Origin: a virus
Reading direction: 5' to 3' (one strand)
IMG/VR virus record: IMGVR_UViG_3300025889_001128
Location: 1-21,190 of that record
DNA length: 21,190 nucleotides
The position numbers and the translations under genes are program-made. A model generated the notes under the pieces. It was not told where the DNA came from. It ran no database searches and saw nothing but the letters and a program-made list of their open reading frames with translations. Below are positions 13,005 to 21,190 of this stretch, one piece after another; position 1 is the first letter of the stretch; each line of letters begins with the position of its first letter.

Positions 13005-13619
13005 ATGGCATCAGGCGATACCAAACTTTCAATATGTTCTGACGCTTTAATTATGCTTGGGGCTTCGCCCCTATCTTCTTTTTCAGAAAACACAGACAGC
13101 GCACAAGTTGCCGACCGCCTTTATGATGATGTGCGTGACACATTGATTATGCAATATCCTTATTCTTGGTCTGTTAAAAAGGTGAAGTTGTCCCGCCTTG
13201 CCAGCACCCCGATTAACGAGTGGAAATATAAGTTTGCATTGCCGGGCGATATACTTGGCAACCCAAAAGCTGTATTTAACAACGGCGCTGTAGGCGCGTT
13301 GCCGGTAAGAGATTTTGAAGTTTATAGCACAGGTTTATTTTCTTCTTACGAAGAGGTTTGGATTGATTACCAGTTCTTGCCTGACCCGGTCATATTCCCG
13401 CCGTATTTTGTTAGGCTGTTAAAGACAGCGCTGGCGTCTGAGTTCGCCGAGCCAATCACAGACCAAATTACAAAGGCTGATTATTATCATCAGAAGGCTT
13501 ATGGCGCACCATCTGAAAATATGCGCGGTGGATTGGTGCGTGTTGCCATTAATATTGACGGCGCTGACCGGCCAGCCCAAACAATACAAGAGTTTCCAAT
13601 TTCAGACATAAGGTTCTAG
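13005..13619 (+). CDS. Tail tubular protein A (T7 gp11-like)
   Basis: This 204-residue protein has TTTGGAG 7 nt before its ATG. The family pattern is clear: an N-terminal CSDALIMLGASPLSSF helix, YDDVRDTLIMQYPYSWSVKK (about 40-59), a strand-rich centre with KFALPGDIL, and a C-terminal helix bundle with FVRLLKTALASEFAEPIT. T7 gp11-like proteins form the adaptor ring between portal and nozzle. The tail tubular B gene follows after one base. Length (about 200) is normal. Confidence 0.88.
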   Translation: MASGDTKLSICSDALIMLGASPLSSFSENTDSAQVADRLYDDVRDTLIMQYPYSWSVKKVKLSRLASTPINEWKYKFALPGDILGNPKAVFNNGAVGALPVRDFEVYSTGLFSSYEEVWIDYQFLPDPVIFPPYFVRLLKTALASEFAEPITDQITKADYYHQKAYGAPSENMRGGLVRVAINIDGADRPAQTIQEFPISDIRF

Positions 13620-13620
13620 G

Positions 13621-15885
13621 ATGAGCCGTATTATCCAAATACAAAATGATTTTACGGCTGGCGCTATTGATCCAAAGCTGCGAGCGCGTACAGATATAAC
13701 CCAATATAAGTCTGGATTAACCACAGCCAGAAACGTCAGCATCCAGCCTCAAGGCGGTGCTAAAAGGCGAGATGGCACAAAATACATTACTGAACTTGAC
13801 AATGCCGTAAGTGTTGGGTCTGTCAGGATGGTGCCTTTTGAGTTTAGTGTTTCCGACAGTTATATGATCGTGTTTACTAGTGCCGCATCAAGCCCCGGCC
13901 TAGTATCAGGCATAATGTATATATTCAAAAACAGGCAGCAGATAACAGGCATATCAGGCACGGTTAATGGATCTATATACACATCAACTGATGCCCCAAG
14001 CATACCAAACTTGACAGAAGATATTGTGGCTGAAATGAATTGGGTTCAGAGCGCCGACAGTTTAATTTTGGTGCATGAGGATTTGGAACCTATACTTATT
14101 CAACGTGGTTTAAACGATCAAAAATGGAATATTGAAAACATACAATTCAGCCACATTCCTAAATACGCTTTTGATTTCGACACACATGAGCCGAATTATA
14201 CTGTTACGCCAAGTGCAACATCAGGTAATATAACGCTCACTGCGTCATCGGCAACAACTGATACTGGCGCGGCTCAAGCTGGAACAGCTAACACAATAAC
14301 GCTAAAAGCAGCAACCAGCTACACCACAGATGATGAGCCGAATGGTATGTTTATAACCATCACTAGCGGCACTGGTTCTGGTCAAGTTCGTCATGTTGAG
14401 GACTATGTTGCCTCGACAAAAATCTTAACTGTTTACCCTACTTGGGATACTGCCCCTGACGCTACCAGCAATTATAAAGTGCAACCATTTGGCACAGCTA
14501 CGGTTGACGAATATATTGTTGCTAAAAATGGATTTGGCCGTGCGCGTGTAACTGAGTTCGTCACCGACACGTCTGTGAAGGCGTTGGTTGAGGTTCCATT
14601 TTTTGACACTACCGCGATCACAGCGGGTAATTTTGAAACAGAACACGGTTATGAGGACGCTTGGTCATCGAGCCGTGGCTGGCCTCGAAGTGCTACATTT
14701 CACGAGGGGCGTTTGTTTTTTGGCGGGAGCAAGCAAAGGCCATCAACAATTTGGGGGTCTAGGGTTTCTGATTTTTTTAACTTTGACGTTGGCGAGGCTT
14801 TAGATGACGCAAGTGTTGAGGCAACTTTAGACACCGGCACGTTTAACGCAATTGTTGATGTTTATTCTGGTAGGCACTTGCAAGTGTTTACAACTGGCGG
14901 CGAGTTCTATGTGCCACAGTCACTGGATACCCCGATAACGCCATCTAGCCTAATTGTAAAACAGCAAACAGCATTTGGGATAAAATCTGGGGTGCGTGTC
15001 CAAAACGTAGATGGCTCAACTATTTTCGTTCAACGGCAAGGCAAGTCGCTACAAGAGTTTATTTATAGCGATACTGTTCAAGCCTATACATCAGTAAAAA
15101 TATCATTACTGTCATCGCACTTGATAAAGACCCCAACAGATATGGCAGTCAGGAAATCCACCTCAACTGATGACGGTGATCGTTTGTTGATTATCAATGG
15201 TGATGATGGGAGCATTGCTTGTTATACGTTGCTGCGCAGCCAGAATGTTATAGCGCCATCAGAGTGGACAACAGACGGTGAGTTTAAGGCTGTTGCGGTT
15301 GATGTTGATGATATTTATGTTGTAACTCAACGCACAAAAAGCGGCCAAGATTATTATTATGTAGAGGTGTTTGATGCTGACACGCTTCTTGATTGCGCAA
15401 CAACAGGCACATCAGGCACAACTATATCTGTGCCACAGTTACAAAATAAAACAGTCAAGATAATTCGTGACGGTGTTTTAGAGCCAGATCAGACCGTGCC
15501 AACACCGCCTAGTGCCGTTGAGATTACTTTTGCAACACCCGCCACCACAAGTTACCAGATTGGCCTCAACTTTACGCCAGAGGTAAAGACGTTACCTGTT
15601 GAGCCAAATTTGCCAAGCGGGTCACTGAAGGGATTTAAAAAACGCATTTTTGAAATTAATGCTGATCTGTTTGAAACGCAGTCTCTGACGATTGATGGAA
15701 AGCTGGTGCCGTTTAGAAGTTTTGGCACTGAAGTTTTGGATGGTGCGGTTCAAGAATACACAGGCATCAAGACATTGAACGGCGTTTTGGGTTATAGTTA
15801 TGATGGTCAAATCACAATCGGCCAAGACGTACCGCTAAAAATGAACCTTCTTGGGATTGATTACAAGGTGAGCATAGGACAGTAA
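13621..15885 (+). CDS. Tail tubular protein B (T7 gp12-like nozzle)
   Basis: This 754-residue, beta-rich protein starts one base after the upstream stop. The N-terminal DFTAGAIDPKLRARTDITQY and NVSIQPQGGAKRRDGTKYI, and later GWPRSATFHEGRLFFGGSKQ, are hallmarks of the tail tubular B family, which builds the nozzle of short tails. Residues ~191-292 are unlike the classic nozzle core: a Thr/Ser/Ala/Gly-rich repetitive beta domain (ITLTASS..., ITSGTGSGQ) like those found in tail adhesins, apparently inserted. C-terminal residues ~590-754 are also beta-rich. Confidence 0.9.
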   Translation: MSRIIQIQNDFTAGAIDPKLRARTDITQYKSGLTTARNVSIQPQGGAKRRDGTKYITELDNAVSVGSVRMVPFEFSVSDSYMIVFTSAASSPGLVSGIMYIFKNRQQITGISGTVNGSIYTSTDAPSIPNLTEDIVAEMNWVQSADSLILVHEDLEPILIQRGLNDQKWNIENIQFSHIPKYAFDFDTHEPNYTVTPSATSGNITLTASSATTDTGAAQAGTANTITLKAATSYTTDDEPNGMFITITSGTGSGQVRHVEDYVASTKILTVYPTWDTAPDATSNYKVQPFGTATVDEYIVAKNGFGRARVTEFVTDTSVKALVEVPFFDTTAITAGNFETEHGYEDAWSSSRGWPRSATFHEGRLFFGGSKQRPSTIWGSRVSDFFNFDVGEALDDASVEATLDTGTFNAIVDVYSGRHLQVFTTGGEFYVPQSLDTPITPSSLIVKQQTAFGIKSGVRVQNVDGSTIFVQRQGKSLQEFIYSDTVQAYTSVKISLLSSHLIKTPTDMAVRKSTSTDDGDRLLIINGDDGSIACYTLLRSQNVIAPSEWTTDGEFKAVAVDVDDIYVVTQRTKSGQDYYYVEVFDADTLLDCATTGTSGTTISVPQLQNKTVKIIRDGVLEPDQTVPTPPSAVEITFATPATTSYQIGLNFTPEVKTLPVEPNLPSGSLKGFKKRIFEINADLFETQSLTIDGKLVPFRSFGTEVLDGAVQEYTGIKTLNGVLGYSYDGQITIGQDVPLKMNLLGIDYKVSIGQ

Positions 15886-15886
15886 T

Positions 15887-16420
15887 ATGACACAGGCTAT
15901 TCCATTTGTATTAGCGGGGTTAACCGCTGCCACCGCTTACTCGCAATTAAAAGTAGGGCAACAACAGGCCAAAGGGCTGATGCAGCAAGCTGCGTTTAGA
16001 AGAGTGCAGGCGCGATCTGAGGCGCTTAAATATAAACAACAAGGCGTTGCCGTTATGGAAAACATACTGCAAACCAAAGCGTCAATTAACGCTAGAATTG
16101 CAGCCGGGGGCGTTGATGCTTTCAGTGGCAGCGCTGACGTTTTAGGCGTTATGACCGAAGCTAAAGGCGCAAACGAATTGTATTTAACTCGCGACGGTGA
16201 AAAGATCGCCTTTGGCGTTGGTGAGGCGCAGGCAATGCAATATGCATCACAAGCTAAATCAGCAATGGCGGCTGGCAGGACTGCCGCGCTAACAACAATA
16301 ACTGCCTATTCTGTCGGTCAGTTTGGTTTGGGCGGCAAACCGAGTGGTGGTAGTACTGGGTTAGAAGCTGGTCAATCGGCAACAGTGTCGAGAGCAGGGT
16401 TTAGAGGATACGGCGGGTAA
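15887..16420 (+). CDS. Internal virion protein B-like (T7 gp14-like)
   Basis: This 177-residue protein has AGGA upstream of its ATG. A hydrophobic N terminus (AIPFVLAGLTAATAYS) precedes a Gln/Ala-rich helix (QLKVGQQQAKGLMQQAAFRR) and KYKQQGVAVMENILQTKASI. The C-terminal 35 residues are Gly/Ser-rich. Size, Gln/Ala helices and place directly after tail tubular B match T7 gp14-type internal proteins, which are ejected first and form a pore in the outer membrane. It stops in TAATG, coupling it to the next gene. Confidence 0.7.
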   Translation: MTQAIPFVLAGLTAATAYSQLKVGQQQAKGLMQQAAFRRVQARSEALKYKQQGVAVMENILQTKASINARIAAGGVDAFSGSADVLGVMTEAKGANELYLTRDGEKIAFGVGEAQAMQYASQAKSAMAAGRTAALTTITAYSVGQFGLGGKPSGGSTGLEAGQSATVSRAGFRGYGG

Positions 16421-18180
16421 TGGCAGAGCTACCAAAATATAGACCCTTGGGTATAGGCATACCATCAGTGCCGACTGTTGACTTTGTGGCGACAGGCGCA
16501 GCCAAGGCGCGTAATTATGACGCCATTGCTAAAAGCCTTAACAGCATGAGTGATTATGTTTACAAAAAACAGGTCGCTCAAACCAAGCGAGAGGCGGCCA
16601 AGTACGCATTTGAAAACCCAGTAACTGCTGAACAAATCCAAGACGCAATATCTCAAGGCAGAGACATTGATGAAATTGTTGGTGACCCTGACACTGTATT
16701 TGGGGCTGTAACCAGCGCTACCATTGCGCAGCAGTTGACGACTGAGCTTGAGATTGACGCAAACAAAAAAATTTCCGCATATTCTGCTGCTATTAAATCT
16801 GGCGGCTTATATACAAATGCACAAATTGGCGCAATGCAGGATGACCTTACCGCAATGATCACTGGGCATTCTGAAATCATTGCAGCAATTGATCCTAACC
16901 AAGCCCTCAAATATAACGCTGCGGCAAACACTAGTGCGTCATCTGTTTATAAATCTGCACTTGAAATGCAGTTGTCGGTTAACCGGGCGGCAAAAGTTGC
17001 TGCCTCAGATGAGTTTCTGGCTGGTTTGCCTGACATGCTTAGAGACATATTAACGGCCAAAGATGTAGATGTTGAAAAAGCAATTGGAGATCTGAATATC
17101 TTAGCGCGTCAAGCTAATGACGTTGTAATAAGCACTGGCGATTTAGCCTACGCAAAAAGCAAATCAACAGAAATACAAACAATGGTTAGGGATGTGCAAG
17201 TTGGTGTATTGACTGATTACGTTATAGGTTTGCCCGGCGCCGCCCAAACTAGTGCTTTGCGCAGTGGCAATATGGGCGCGTTGACGCCAGTCTATGCGCT
17301 TTTGGATAGCAAAGAGCAAGCTAAATTTAGATTAAATGTAAGAACAGAGATTGCTGCTAGGCAGACTGCTGACGATCAAGTTGAGGCCGACAACCTAAAA
17401 ACAGCAAACAGAGATTTAGTTGGTGCTGTAGTAGGTTTTACAACAGCAGTGGATGGAACCCCTGCGTCTGATATGGAGCTAGCAAAAATTTATCAAATTG
17501 CAATTGACACCAATGGGGATGCTATTGATGGTCAGGGAATTATTGCATTAATAAAAGCAAAGCGAGCATTAGGAGAGGACGAGCCTACAAATCCCGTTGG
17601 TGAGTTGCAATTATTAGATCTAATTTATAATGACAAAATCACTACTTTGGCAGAACTACAAGCCGTTGCACAAGAAAAGGGCGTGGGGCCAAAAGCCCAG
17701 TTAAGATTGTTGCCAAAAATGAACACGGCAACAAAAGAAATTGAGCGCGGAGTTGCATCTATTGCTCGCCAACATTCGCAAATTGTTCCCGGCACGTTGA
17801 ACCCTTCAAAGAAAAAAGCCCAAGCATATGCCAGTTTTACAGCAAAAGTTGACGCTAGATTTATTGAAAAAATGAGTGCTTGGGAAACTAGCGCAGATGA
17901 GCCGGATATTACTAAAAAACCTAGTAAGGTTGAAATTGCAAAAGAGTTAAAAAATGATTTGATGTCGAGCGAGTACGGCAAAATCATTACAAGGTTGGTT
18001 AATACAACTGATGAGCGGCTAGATAAATACGGCATAGATTTTACAGAATATACAACAATTGACGAAATCAATAGCGTCAGGCGGGGTTATAATATGTCTG
18101 ACGATGATTACGATTATGTCGTGAAAAAAATCAAAGCTATTCAGCGAAACATTGTTTTGAGAGATGAATTGGTAGATTAA
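16420..18180 (+). CDS. Internal virion protein C-position protein (T7 gp15-like by context)
   Basis: This 586-residue, mostly helical protein has its start overlapping the upstream stop (TAATG) and AGAGGA upstream. The N terminus (KYRPLGIGIPSVPTVDF) then alternates Ala/Lys/Gln helices, with a KKQVAQTKREAAKYAFE segment that resembles the start of internal core proteins of podoviruses. Length and position equal T7 gp15, which forms the ejectosome tube in the periplasm. No catalytic motif is seen. The assignment rests on order and composition more than on strong sequence resemblance. The stop (TAATGG) couples it to the next gene. Confidence 0.55.
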   Translation: MAELPKYRPLGIGIPSVPTVDFVATGAAKARNYDAIAKSLNSMSDYVYKKQVAQTKREAAKYAFENPVTAEQIQDAISQGRDIDEIVGDPDTVFGAVTSATIAQQLTTELEIDANKKISAYSAAIKSGGLYTNAQIGAMQDDLTAMITGHSEIIAAIDPNQALKYNAAANTSASSVYKSALEMQLSVNRAAKVAASDEFLAGLPDMLRDILTAKDVDVEKAIGDLNILARQANDVVISTGDLAYAKSKSTEIQTMVRDVQVGVLTDYVIGLPGAAQTSALRSGNMGALTPVYALLDSKEQAKFRLNVRTEIAARQTADDQVEADNLKTANRDLVGAVVGFTTAVDGTPASDMELAKIYQIAIDTNGDAIDGQGIIALIKAKRALGEDEPTNPVGELQLLDLIYNDKITTLAELQAVAQEKGVGPKAQLRLLPKMNTATKEIERGVASIARQHSQIVPGTLNPSKKKAQAYASFTAKVDARFIEKMSAWETSADEPDITKKPSKVEIAKELKNDLMSSEYGKIITRLVNTTDERLDKYGIDFTEYTTIDEINSVRRGYNMSDDDYDYVVKKIKAIQRNIVLRDELVD

Positions 18181-20666
18181 TGGATGAGCTAAAAGAAGCA
18201 TTTGACTATCAGGCAGACGCCCACATTTTCTTGGGATCTCCGCAACCTATGTTGCGGGATATGCGTTTTGACGATGTTTCTATGCCACCAGAACCTGATG
18301 ATGAACCTGTTGAAAAACGCGGCGACAGACGACAGCGCCGCGAAGATATTAAGGTGGTGCCGCCAAAATATAATGAAGATCAGCTTGCTGTAATGCCTGA
18401 GTGGATCGGCGCGTCTAAAAAAATGTTTTCTGTTATGAATGATGGCGAACGTTTTATTGGCTCGGACAAGCAGGCGGCGGCATATGGTCTGGATTTAATG
18501 TCTGAGTTTAATTGGAACATGACCGGGCCTGCTGGCATACCCGGCAAAAGCGGTATAAGCGTACCCGGCTTTGCGTTTCAAGTGGCGGCTCTTATGTCAG
18601 ATAATGCTGGCGAAGAAAACGCTATGACGTTTTTGAAAATGCTCCACACCTACTCTGACACAGCAACAAATGGCGCAACAATCAAACGCGCATTTCGCGG
18701 TATCTTTGCAGACCCATTAACTTACGCTGGCGGTATTGCCAAGCTCTACGCTATGGGCGCGAAATCTATTGCTGGAAAAGTGTCAGGATCGTTGCTTAAA
18801 GACACGCTAATGAAAACAGCGGCTGGCACTGCTATGCCTTATGACCTTGCTGCCAAGTATCCGGGCAGGACTGGTATGGTCGCAGGCGCTGGTTATGGGG
18901 CAGGCTTTGAAGGCGGCAAAATGGCCGTTGAGGATGCGGCAGGACTTGGGCCTACTGTTGGTGAAGCAGCCGCTAGACTTGGCACTGCTGGCACTGTGGG
19001 CGCTGCTGTCGGTGGCGTAGCCAGCAAGGTTTTAAGTAAAGCTATTCCGGCTGCTGGCAGTGCTGTGCGCCAAGGGCTGGACACAGCAGGGCAAGCTGCC
19101 GAAGCTCGGATGGCCGAGCGTGGGCCTATTACTGATCGCCTTATGTCTGGCGGTGATCCTATGGATGTGATTGATCCGGTGTTGGCTGGGCTTGGCCGTA
19201 TAGCCAGATCTGAGCAACCGACAACAGGGTTGTCACAGGCATCAGATGAGGCGACAGTCAGCGGTTTAGCGCCAGAATATCGCGTCAATGTTGATGCCTT
19301 TGAGCCAGAGGGTACTGGCAAGCAATCTTTGGTGCCGATTAAGTTGACGCCAAAGAACTCAGAAAAAGTTAAGCCGGTGATGACGCAACTTGAGCAAGAG
19401 TTCCCTGACCCGCTGGCCTCGCCGCAATCATATGCGACTATGGTTGCCAAGATGCAAAACAAAAAAGAAGTGTCGATGCCGCCATCGTGGATGATCGAAC
19501 ACGCAAACAACCCGGAAAAGTGGGCTGATTGGTTTGGGCAAATTACGCCGGATCAAATCAAAGCGGCTGATGAGGGCTTGGCAGTACAGCAAAAGTTTGT
19601 TGATGCATACACCGCTGGGTCTGGGCCTGAGTTAACAGGTCAACTTATGCTCTGGGCTATCTTGTCAAGGCGCATGTCAGCATTCCCGCATGAGGCTGGT
19701 TATCTTGAGTTGGCTGAAGCCGCAATGCCATTTATCCAAAAGGCGGCGCGTGGTGAATGGTCTGATGCTGACAGCGCGGCTTGGCGTGAGATGTCAATGA
19801 GCATACAGCCAGAAGGTGCGCCCGGCAAAAGTGCCACATCAAATGCAAACGACTTTGGTGAAGTTTTCTTGAAAAAAATGTCTGCTGTTGATGAAGGCGG
19901 CGTGTCGGCATTAACGCGCTTACATAACTTAATTGCAGACCAAAGCAAAAACAGTAAAGAAATAAGACGCGAATACTACTCACTAGCAGAAGGCACTGGC
20001 ATTGGTAACAAGATCCTGTCATTTGCTTTGCTAGTATCTGGACGCAACGATGTTGTGGTTCTTGACCGCATCCAGATCAATCAAATGTGGGGCGGCGGCG
20101 ACAAGATTTATGACGACATTATGAAGCAGTTTGAAGGCGCACAAGGGCTTGTCCAATATGAGGCACTTGAGCGCTCATTGTTAAATCGTGTTCCTGATCT
20201 TTATAACCGCCTTGGACGCGGTGATGTTGGATCTGTTGGTAGATACCACTGGGAAAGCTGGGTAAGGTCATCAGGACAAGTTGTTTCGCATCCAACGCTA
20301 GAGGCTGTTGTTGGTATGGGGTCTAAGCGCCCCGGCGCGAATTTTAGCCCAACAGAAATGATGCCTATAACTGAAGGTCGGTTCCACACTAAATATTCTG
20401 GTGTGTCATACGAAAAAATGCCGGGTGGTGGAAGCCGGTTTATTTACAACACAAGTGACGGTCAGCCGTATCAGTTCACAAAAACAGAATTAGATGGTAT
20501 GTTCGATCAAGTGTTTAGTAAAAAGTCTGGCGTTCTTCCAGAGGACTTTCCGGGCGTCCAAGCATTTGAGGGTGGAAGCATACCTTGGTATGAATTTGAA
20601 GGAGTAGATCGTGGAAAACTTGACAAACTCATTAGATCAAAAGGACAACCAGCAGAAGAATACTAA
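18180..20666 (+). CDS. Large ejected virion protein with HhH-GPD-like DNA glycosylase domain (gp16 position)
   Basis: This is an 828-residue protein in the gp16 position. Residues 1-65 are acidic then basic (VEKRGDRRQRRED). Residues ~215-300 are Gly/Ala-rich and hydrophobic (MVAGAGYGAGFEGG, LGTAGTVGAAVGGVA), able to insert into membrane. Residues ~480-720 are helical: a first helix LTGQLMLWAILSRRMSAF, then GTGIGNKILSFALLVSG (Gly607-x-Gly609-x-Lys611) and VVVLDRI with Asp629. Lys611 to Asp629 is 18 residues, the spacing between catalytic Lys120 and Asp138 of E. coli endonuclease III, and GxGxK is the helix-hairpin-helix motif. RYHWESW (688-694) follows. No lytic transglycosylase motif of T7 gp16 is seen. 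The virion role is inferred from position, the glycosylase role from the motif alone. Confidence 0.55.
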   Translation: MDELKEAFDYQADAHIFLGSPQPMLRDMRFDDVSMPPEPDDEPVEKRGDRRQRREDIKVVPPKYNEDQLAVMPEWIGASKKMFSVMNDGERFIGSDKQAAAYGLDLMSEFNWNMTGPAGIPGKSGISVPGFAFQVAALMSDNAGEENAMTFLKMLHTYSDTATNGATIKRAFRGIFADPLTYAGGIAKLYAMGAKSIAGKVSGSLLKDTLMKTAAGTAMPYDLAAKYPGRTGMVAGAGYGAGFEGGKMAVEDAAGLGPTVGEAAARLGTAGTVGAAVGGVASKVLSKAIPAAGSAVRQGLDTAGQAAEARMAERGPITDRLMSGGDPMDVIDPVLAGLGRIARSEQPTTGLSQASDEATVSGLAPEYRVNVDAFEPEGTGKQSLVPIKLTPKNSEKVKPVMTQLEQEFPDPLASPQSYATMVAKMQNKKEVSMPPSWMIEHANNPEKWADWFGQITPDQIKAADEGLAVQQKFVDAYTAGSGPELTGQLMLWAILSRRMSAFPHEAGYLELAEAAMPFIQKAARGEWSDADSAAWREMSMSIQPEGAPGKSATSNANDFGEVFLKKMSAVDEGGVSALTRLHNLIADQSKNSKEIRREYYSLAEGTGIGNKILSFALLVSGRNDVVVLDRIQINQMWGGGDKIYDDIMKQFEGAQGLVQYEALERSLLNRVPDLYNRLGRGDVGSVGRYHWESWVRSSGQVVSHPTLEAVVGMGSKRPGANFSPTEMMPITEGRFHTKYSGVSYEKMPGGGSRFIYNTSDGQPYQFTKTELDGMFDQVFSKKSGVLPEDFPGVQAFEGGSIPWYEFEGVDRGKLDKLIRSKGQPAEEY

Positions 20667-20760: not shown

Positions 20761-21190
20761 ATGGCGATACCTAAAGCACCGGATGAGCGGCGTAGCATTC
20801 TGGACACAGAGGCAGACATCAATGCCGCGCCTGAGACTGGTGCGCCAGAAGATGAGTATGTGCAAGTCGCCAGCCTTAGTTCTGGGATTACGTCTAAGCT
20901 AGCCAGAAGCAAAACCAAAGAAATCATTGGCGGCTTGACTGAGCCGGGCGCAAGGTTGTCACCAGAGGCGCGGGTAACAAAAGAAGCCGGGGAAATGCCA
21001 ACGGTCACTGATGTGCCTGTTGGGCCTGTCATTGGTGCGCCGGGAGCGGCACCACAGCCGCAACCAACGTCACCACCGCCAGTAACGCTAGAAGAGATGC
21101 AGGCGCGTTTGCAGGCGCGTCAGGCAGAGATTGGCACGGCGCGTGAGGTGCCATCGCCAACCAAGGCGCAAAAAATTGCTGGCTTAAAAG
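20761..21190 (+). CDS. Probable virion protein, N-terminal part (3' partial)
   Basis: The frame is open from the ATG at 20761 to the window end (143 residues), with AGAGGAA just upstream. The visible part is low-complexity and probably disordered: MAIPKAPDERRSILDTEAD, then Pro/Ala-rich linkers (GAPGAAPQPQPTSPPP) and a Glu/Gln/Arg helix (LEEMQARLQARQAEIG). The composition and place suggest another large internal/ejected virion protein whose enzymatic domain, if any, lies beyond the window. No function can be assigned. Confidence 0.6.
   Translation, partial: MAIPKAPDERRSILDTEADINAAPETGAPEDEYVQVASLSSGITSKLARSKTKEIIGGLTEPGARLSPEARVTKEAGEMPTVTDVPVGPVIGAPGAAPQPQPTSPPPVTLEEMQARLQARQAEIGTAREVPSPTKAQKIAGLK

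Follow-up and report, generated by a model that had tools for sequence, protein, structure and literature searches.

What does the C-terminal half of a large protein encoded among the ejection genes of a phage do, and on which DNA would it act? The window considered here is the whole analysed stretch of 21,190 nucleotides (IMG/VR record IMGVR_UViG_3300025889_001128), and the phage that it represents is short-tailed, aquatic and known from environmental DNA alone. A preliminary description had proposed that an 828-residue protein in this window carries a DNA glycosylase-like HhH-GPD domain and is injected with the genome, in the slot where T7 carries gp16. The open reading frame for a protein of that length was found at 18180-20666 on the plus strand, and it is uninterrupted in the near-identical contigs L001 and L002 as well as in orthologues. 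In our best explanation of the results given below, residues 428-722 are an OGG2-like HhH-GPD base-excision domain within a protein that is itself probably ejected, and the domain acts on the entering DNA; we consider this reading, taken as a whole, to be probable. The gene lies in the following neighborhood.

13005-13619, plus strand: open reading frame in the position of tail tubular protein A (TTPA), which precedes TTPB in MEP301 and LUZ100; no Pfam match
13621-15885, plus strand: tail tubular protein B-like tail protein (phrog_376, E 7e-119)
15887-16420, plus strand: gp14-like internal virion protein (phrog_418, E 8e-9)
16420-18180, plus strand: open reading frame in the gp15 position, assigned by position and by tblastn to MEP301 gp26, which occupies the same syntenic place
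18180-20666, plus strand: open reading frame of 828 residues in the ejection operon; the protein is gp16-like in an N-terminal stretch and has a predicted HhH-GPD domain in its C-terminal half
20761-21190, plus strand: next virion protein, start only, cut by the end of the window

Further upstream are a T7-type scaffold protein and the major capsid protein. The counterpart in L002 of the truncated last open reading frame is complete and encodes a gp16/internal virion protein D-like protein of 1069 residues, which matches phrog_6651 (E 2e-11) and the MEP301 internal virion protein (E 6e-32), and this gp16-like open reading frame also matches proteins that are named "internal virion protein D" in roseophages and pelagiphages. 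With the gp15 position upstream and a gp16-like open reading frame downstream, the 828-residue protein is therefore encoded between the gp15 and gp16 positions. Its place after the gp14 and gp15 positions fits that of T7 gp16, and the same gene order is present in the freshwater-type relatives L049 and L088. Among cultured phages, Methylophilales phage MEP301 is the closest by its portal protein, with 66% identity; the glycosylase domain is absent from both MEP301 and LUZ100. Residues 70-132 of the gp15-position protein match Pfam Ribosomal_L9_C above the cut-off (E 1.9e-5), a surprising match in an ejection protein that could be spurious or reflect a module taken from elsewhere, and two adjacent small open reading frames at 1-423 and 416-832 encode putative PDDEXK endonucleases (PDDEXK_15 and PDDEXK_14).

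The relation of the protein to gp16 is one of shared neighborhood and of a shared N-terminal module. Residues 67-184 are homologous to LUZ100 gp47 ("internal virion D", of the T7 gp16 class; tblastn E 8e-8, BLASTP 31% identity over 118 columns), and the match covers the N-terminus of LUZ100 gp47. The part of T7 gp16 that is of channel type corresponds, on the other hand, to the separate downstream gene, and the 828-residue protein has no Pfam transglycosylase match. The N-terminal enzyme of T7 gp16 is a transglycosylase, which is described as specific to particular phages and as capable of moving to the homologue of gp15 (PMC8954989). Since the N-terminus matches a gp16 homologue, gp16 may have split or duplicated in this lineage, with the glycosylase replacing the N-terminal enzymatic part. 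The proposed gp16 slot thus holds in part: the N-terminus has the homology, but the gene itself sits beside a separate gp16-like gene. Modular swapping is also suggested by relatives in which the N-terminal part (window 18180-19270) is replaced while the glycosylase domain is retained; in L004-L007, L009, L010 and L015 the module of residues 67-184 is exchanged for unrelated sequence. We consider packaging of the protein in the virion and its delivery into the cell to be likely.

The residues on which the glycosylase proposal had been built, namely G607, G609, K611, D629 in VVVLDRI, the helical segment LMLWAILSRRMSAF (residues 489-502) and the HW pair at 690-691, are all at the positions claimed, and K611 and D629 are indeed 18 residues apart. 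A bare GxGxK-x17-D pattern is nevertheless expected 0.04 times per shuffled protein, so that the motif alone is suggestive only, and the further elements given here draw on homology searches, structure prediction and a family alignment.

18378-18731, plus strand: LUZ100 gp47-homologous module, residues 67-184 (tblastn, BLASTP)
19461-20345, plus strand: predicted HhH-GPD/OGG2-like domain, residues 428-722 (AF2, Foldseek, hhalign)
19626-19664, plus strand: helix, residues 483-495, with invariant W492, followed by S496 (DSSP on the model; conservation)
19992-20012, plus strand: HhH hairpin G-I-x-N-K, residues 605-611, with the predicted Schiff-base lysine K611 as its last residue
20010-20012, plus strand: codon of K611, paired with MjaOGG K129 and invariant
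20064-20066, plus strand: D629, predicted catalytic aspartate, equivalent to MjaOGG D147 (alignments, invariance)
20247-20291, plus strand: predicted base pocket HWESWVRSSGQVVSH, residues 690-704 (hhalign register; OGG2 roles from PMC3397491)
20376-20663, plus strand: conserved C-terminal extension, residues 733-828 (predicted beta strands)

The C-terminal extension contains a conserved PWYEFEGV motif and matches no known family.

The structure of residues 428-722 was predicted with AF2 from an alignment of 85 homologues at pLDDT 95.5 and pTM 0.93, and the five models agree in confidence. In a Foldseek search of 350,542 PDB chains, this model matched 3n0u_C, 3knt_A and 3n0u_A with a probability of 1.00, all of them structures of OGG2 enzymes (8-oxoguanine DNA glycosylase/AP lyases, a subfamily of HhH-GPD), with TM-scores on target length in the range 0.64-0.69 (up to 0.69 for TmOGG, 3n0u, and 0.66 for the MjaOGG-DNA complex, 3knt). 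The E-values of the OGG2 matches are modest, at 2e-3 to 6e-3, but the next-best match has a probability of 0.04, and all non-OGG2 chains among the matches listed are at or below 0.14. The HhH-GPD fold that had been proposed is thus recovered with known members of the superfamily as its best structural matches. A model made from 13 close homologues reached only pLDDT 67.5 and gave meaningless Foldseek matches; it was set aside as uninformative and not taken as a refutation.

Comparison of profiles led to the same subfamily. The motif had already led to the expectation of OGG2 before the PDB profile search was run. In that search (hmmsearch with the family profile against 177,635 PDB sequences), MjaOGG (3fhf) ranked first with an E-value of 0.64, which is weak alone, and the alignment pairs K611 with K129 and D629 with D147. 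Alignment of the family profile with an OGG2 profile by hhalign gave the same pairing with a score of 33.0 (P 5e-4, 119 columns, probability 32%), compared with maxima of 22.1 for 40 column shuffles, 21.1 for reversed profiles and 22.3 for 68 unrelated phage families, and with 38.0 for MutY against OGG2, a true superfamily pair. Endonuclease III, MutY and AlkA were rejected as closest kin, with hhalign scores of 11.7, 13.0 and 19.9 that resemble those of the controls, and none of the three is among the best 50 PDB Foldseek matches listed. The domain shares with these enzymes the superfamily catalytic layout and the Lys-Asp spacing, but it is without the VDTH motif and without Fe-S cluster cysteines. 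The kinship with HhH-GPD proteins stands, and Endonuclease III, to which the preliminary description had likened the site, gives way to OGG2 as the closer relative. Helix 483-495 lies at the position of "ILTAN" in OGG2 and "LLSAQ" in Endonuclease III, a correspondence matched by eye only. Scans with Pfam, PHROG and PADLOC of the open reading frame, its close homologues and the giant relatives placed no family on the domain, the Pfam HhH-GPD models matched no member tested, and a PDB sequence search with the open reading frame or close homologues as query returned nothing.

These results bear directly on the explanation that the motif arose by chance in an unrelated alpha-helical virion protein. 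The shuffling frequency and the failure of the shallow-alignment model to match anything would be in keeping with it, but the deep-alignment model and Foldseek, and likewise hhalign and the profile search of the PDB, converge on one subfamily, and the sequence methods place both catalytic residues in register, so we hold a chance origin to be very improbable. The fold is almost certainly of the HhH-GPD/OGG2-like type.

The conservation of individual residues was assessed in a wider family. The close homologues, on 16 IMG/VR contigs, retain K611 and D629 but are too alike to be informative, and the family was therefore gathered with degenerate DNA patterns for three conserved stretches followed by profile searches. 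This yielded 204 open reading frames, some of them from one contig fetched repeatedly, and the final alignment contains 85 non-redundant phage domains with 30-90% identity to the window protein. The 85 distinct members are found in proteins of about 700-3540 residues. There are 21 invariant columns, which include W492, S496, E505, N555, R596, N610, K611, D629, R630, E661, H690, W691, W694, Q700 and H704. K611 and D629 are unchanged in 85/85 homologues down to 30% identity, and neither is lost in any homologue covering both, such a loss in close homologues being one of the outcomes that the preliminary description had named as contradicting its reading. Its GxGxK motif fared less uniformly: G607 and K611 are present and K611 is invariant, whereas G609 is not conserved, position 609 being Asp in 35, Lys in 14, Asn in 14, Gln in 9 and Gly in 6 of the 85 domains. 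The G-h-G of the hairpin accordingly has its first glycine in 80/85 and a conserved hydrophobic residue, with the second glycine in 6/85, and the motif of the family reads G-I-x-N-K-V-L-S-F...G-R-x-D-V-x-V-L-D-R. The hairpin is flanked by model helices 165-175 and 183-192. In the loop before D629, G621 is invariant and there is no proline; OGG2 likewise has a glycine and no proline at this place.

Because two of the fetch patterns themselves contain a portion of the motif, conservation was tallied per fetching pattern. K611 is present in 48/48 sequences fetched without specifying it and in 20/20 fetched through the distant HWESW pattern (68/68 in total), D629 in 49/49 and 21/21 of the sets fetched without specifying it (70/70), and the His/Trp/Trp/Gln/His set of the pocket in 47/47 and 46/46 of the two other fetch sets, which excludes ascertainment bias as the source of these invariances. 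Compared with its closest relatives, the window protein has a dN/dS of about 0.02-0.07, and it is under strong purifying selection. By sequence comparison, the family evidence lifts the putative catalytic pair K611/D629 far above chance. The same conservation weighs against the explanation that the fold is kept for DNA binding only, as a catalytically idle grip or ratchet during ejection. Ejection proteins are in contact with the DNA as it passes, DNA binding has been reported for gp16-C (PMC8954989), and the binding of DNA by HhH folds does not depend on sequence; however, strict invariance of the lysine, the aspartate and the pocket residues in 85 diverse homologues would not be needed for binding alone, and we regard an idle domain as improbable. 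A catalytically active domain is likely.

The domain is also found outside proteins of the present size. Some relatives hold it within proteins of 2000-3540 residues, and in L081, L090, L149 and L156 it is part of proteins of 2730-3540 residues that also contain one or more of LPD37, LPD38 and ART-PolyVal. LPD38 is restricted to phage-type polyvalent proteins, which are held to be injected along with DNA, and the survey describing them makes no mention of a DNA-glycosylase domain (PMC5512222). The window protein thus has a domain in common with these giant relatives, but it is smaller and, unlike them, has no Pfam domain. In GenBank phages, tblastn gave no match with the domain or with two distant members as query, nor did tblastn of the domain against plasmids or an alignment-based search of prokaryotic genomes. 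A DNA pattern scan of prokaryotic genomes gave 14 hits, of which one is real; this contig (L211, CAIMMO010000191.1, from an Alphaproteobacteria MAG), with an open reading frame of 1860 residues that is truncated where the fetched locus ends, is the sole genome-collection contig found to have the domain and is possibly a phage contig or a prophage.

Other phage proteins of HhH-GPD type, such as Streptomyces phage Sf3 gp35, the endonuclease III of HGTV-1 and Caulobacter phage CcrColossus gp190, are free-standing and, unlike the window protein, are not fused into ejection or polyvalent proteins. CcrColossus gp190 (L284:935-1504), a "hypothetical protein" encoded beside a DNA ligase, looks from its sequence like a free-standing HhH-GPD glycosylase/lyase (GVGPKTARMFL...AAIDTHVL, with DLAVW near the C-terminus), and CcrPW gave a similar match. 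Four uncharacterised viral proteins in BFVD (A0A6J7WE55, A0A6J5LC27, G8EYE9 from Synechococcus phage S-CBP42, and M1NWK4) match the same predicted fold with a probability of 0.99-1.00 at 13-17% identity, and are possibly further hidden phage HhH-GPD families.

The likeness to OGG2 extends from the predicted fold, the HhH hairpin and the Lys-Asp pair 18 apart to a series of positions after the lysine (S+3, L+6, G+10, D+13, V+14 and R+19) and to the base pocket. In the pocket of MjaOGG, Trp198 provides stacking on 8-oxoG, Asp194 is equivalent to Gln315, through which OGG1 contacts the base, and K207, the C-terminal lysine, tells 8-oxoG from G by means of its carboxylate (PMC3397491). In the hhalign register W694 (Trp in 85/85) corresponds to Trp198 and G699 to the following Gly203. 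The domain differs from OGG2 in its length, about 295 residues instead of about 200 and enclosed in a large phage protein, in its identity of about 18%, and in the rest of the pocket: H690 (85/85) stands in place of Asp194, and where OGG2 ends the chain runs on, with a variable residue 703 at the position of the C-terminal lysine beside invariant H704, and with invariant Q700 also near this site. Neither the C-terminal Lys carboxylate that serves OGG2 as its 8-oxoG sensor nor Asp194 is present in the family alignment. As it does not have the OGG2-defining C-terminal lysine, the domain is not classed as OGG2 itself but is placed in the HhH-GPD superfamily on a branch that resembles OGG2.

With the catalytic pair, the stacking tryptophan and the fold kept and the sensor residues replaced, base recognition appears to have been rebuilt, and since H690, Q700 and H704 take the place of Asp194 and the C-terminal lysine, the substrate may not be 8-oxoG. 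We infer a bifunctional glycosylase/AP-lyase with a base specificity unlike that of OGG2, AP-lyase activity being the safest prediction. Within this explanation, the domain could act mainly as an AP lyase, or else as a glycosylase that removes some lesion other than 8-oxoG. Truncation of the C-terminus of OGG2 abolishes 8-oxoG excision and spares AP-lyase activity (PMC3397491), and in the present family the chain continues past the OGG2 end with Q700 and H704 replacing the sensor; other residues could, however, sense 8-oxoG, as Gly42 does in OGG1, and we judge this narrower assignment to fall a little short of an even chance.

In the mechanism that we propose for the OGG2-like domain, the HhH hairpin (605-611) and the region of S496-R497 would grip bent DNA, and a base would be flipped into the pocket lined by W694, H690, Q700 and H704. 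D629 would position and activate K611, which would attack C1', free the base and nick the strand by beta-elimination, as in a bifunctional glycosylase/lyase. The most likely role would be to remove or process bases that are damaged or modified in the genome as it enters, ahead of host repair and replication. We put a role on incoming rather than host DNA at somewhat better than even. The N-terminal half of T7 gp16 ends in the periplasm (PMC8954989), which, if the same applies here, would be the wrong compartment for such a role.

Alternatively, the injected enzyme may be active and attack host DNA or a host-specific modified base, thereby aiding shut-off or nucleotide recycling. The substrate pocket unlike that of OGG2, the ART domains of the polyvalent relatives, a class that includes host-modifying enzymes (PMC5512222), and the two putative PDDEXK nucleases in the window would all suit such an attack, but the closest fold is that of a repair enzyme, injected copies would be few and better suited to one incoming genome than to a whole chromosome, and no modified-base pathway is seen in the window, itself a fragment; we therefore regard this alternative as unlikely. 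A more far-reaching form of the base-excision reading is that these proteins are a hitherto unrecognised phage family of virion-injected bifunctional glycosylases/lyases, derived from an OGG2-like ancestor, in which the new H690/W694/Q700/H704 pocket acts at entry on a base other than 8-oxoG. This is a tentative proposal that we consider less likely than not; if true, the target base could be a modification that is host-specific or made by host defence, and the family would represent a class of counter-defence or host-attack enzymes.

Enzymes known to be injected by phages include polymerases, ADP-ribosyltransferases, methylases and peptidoglycan hydrolases. The open-access literature searched yielded no account of a base-excision enzyme being injected, and the protein as modeled would combine a known enzyme fold and a re-tooled pocket with a delivery context for which no precedent was found there. 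The domain is shared by a large phage family that was previously unrecognised. Bacteria deploy DNA glycosylases against phages, as in the case of Brig1 (PMC11078745), and a phage-borne glycosylase domain complements that finding. Some of the dark matter among ejection and polyvalent proteins receives a catalytic label through this family, which also makes testable whether phages bring their own base-excision step into the cell, possibly for surviving oxidative or light damage outside the host, or for countering or exploiting base modifications.
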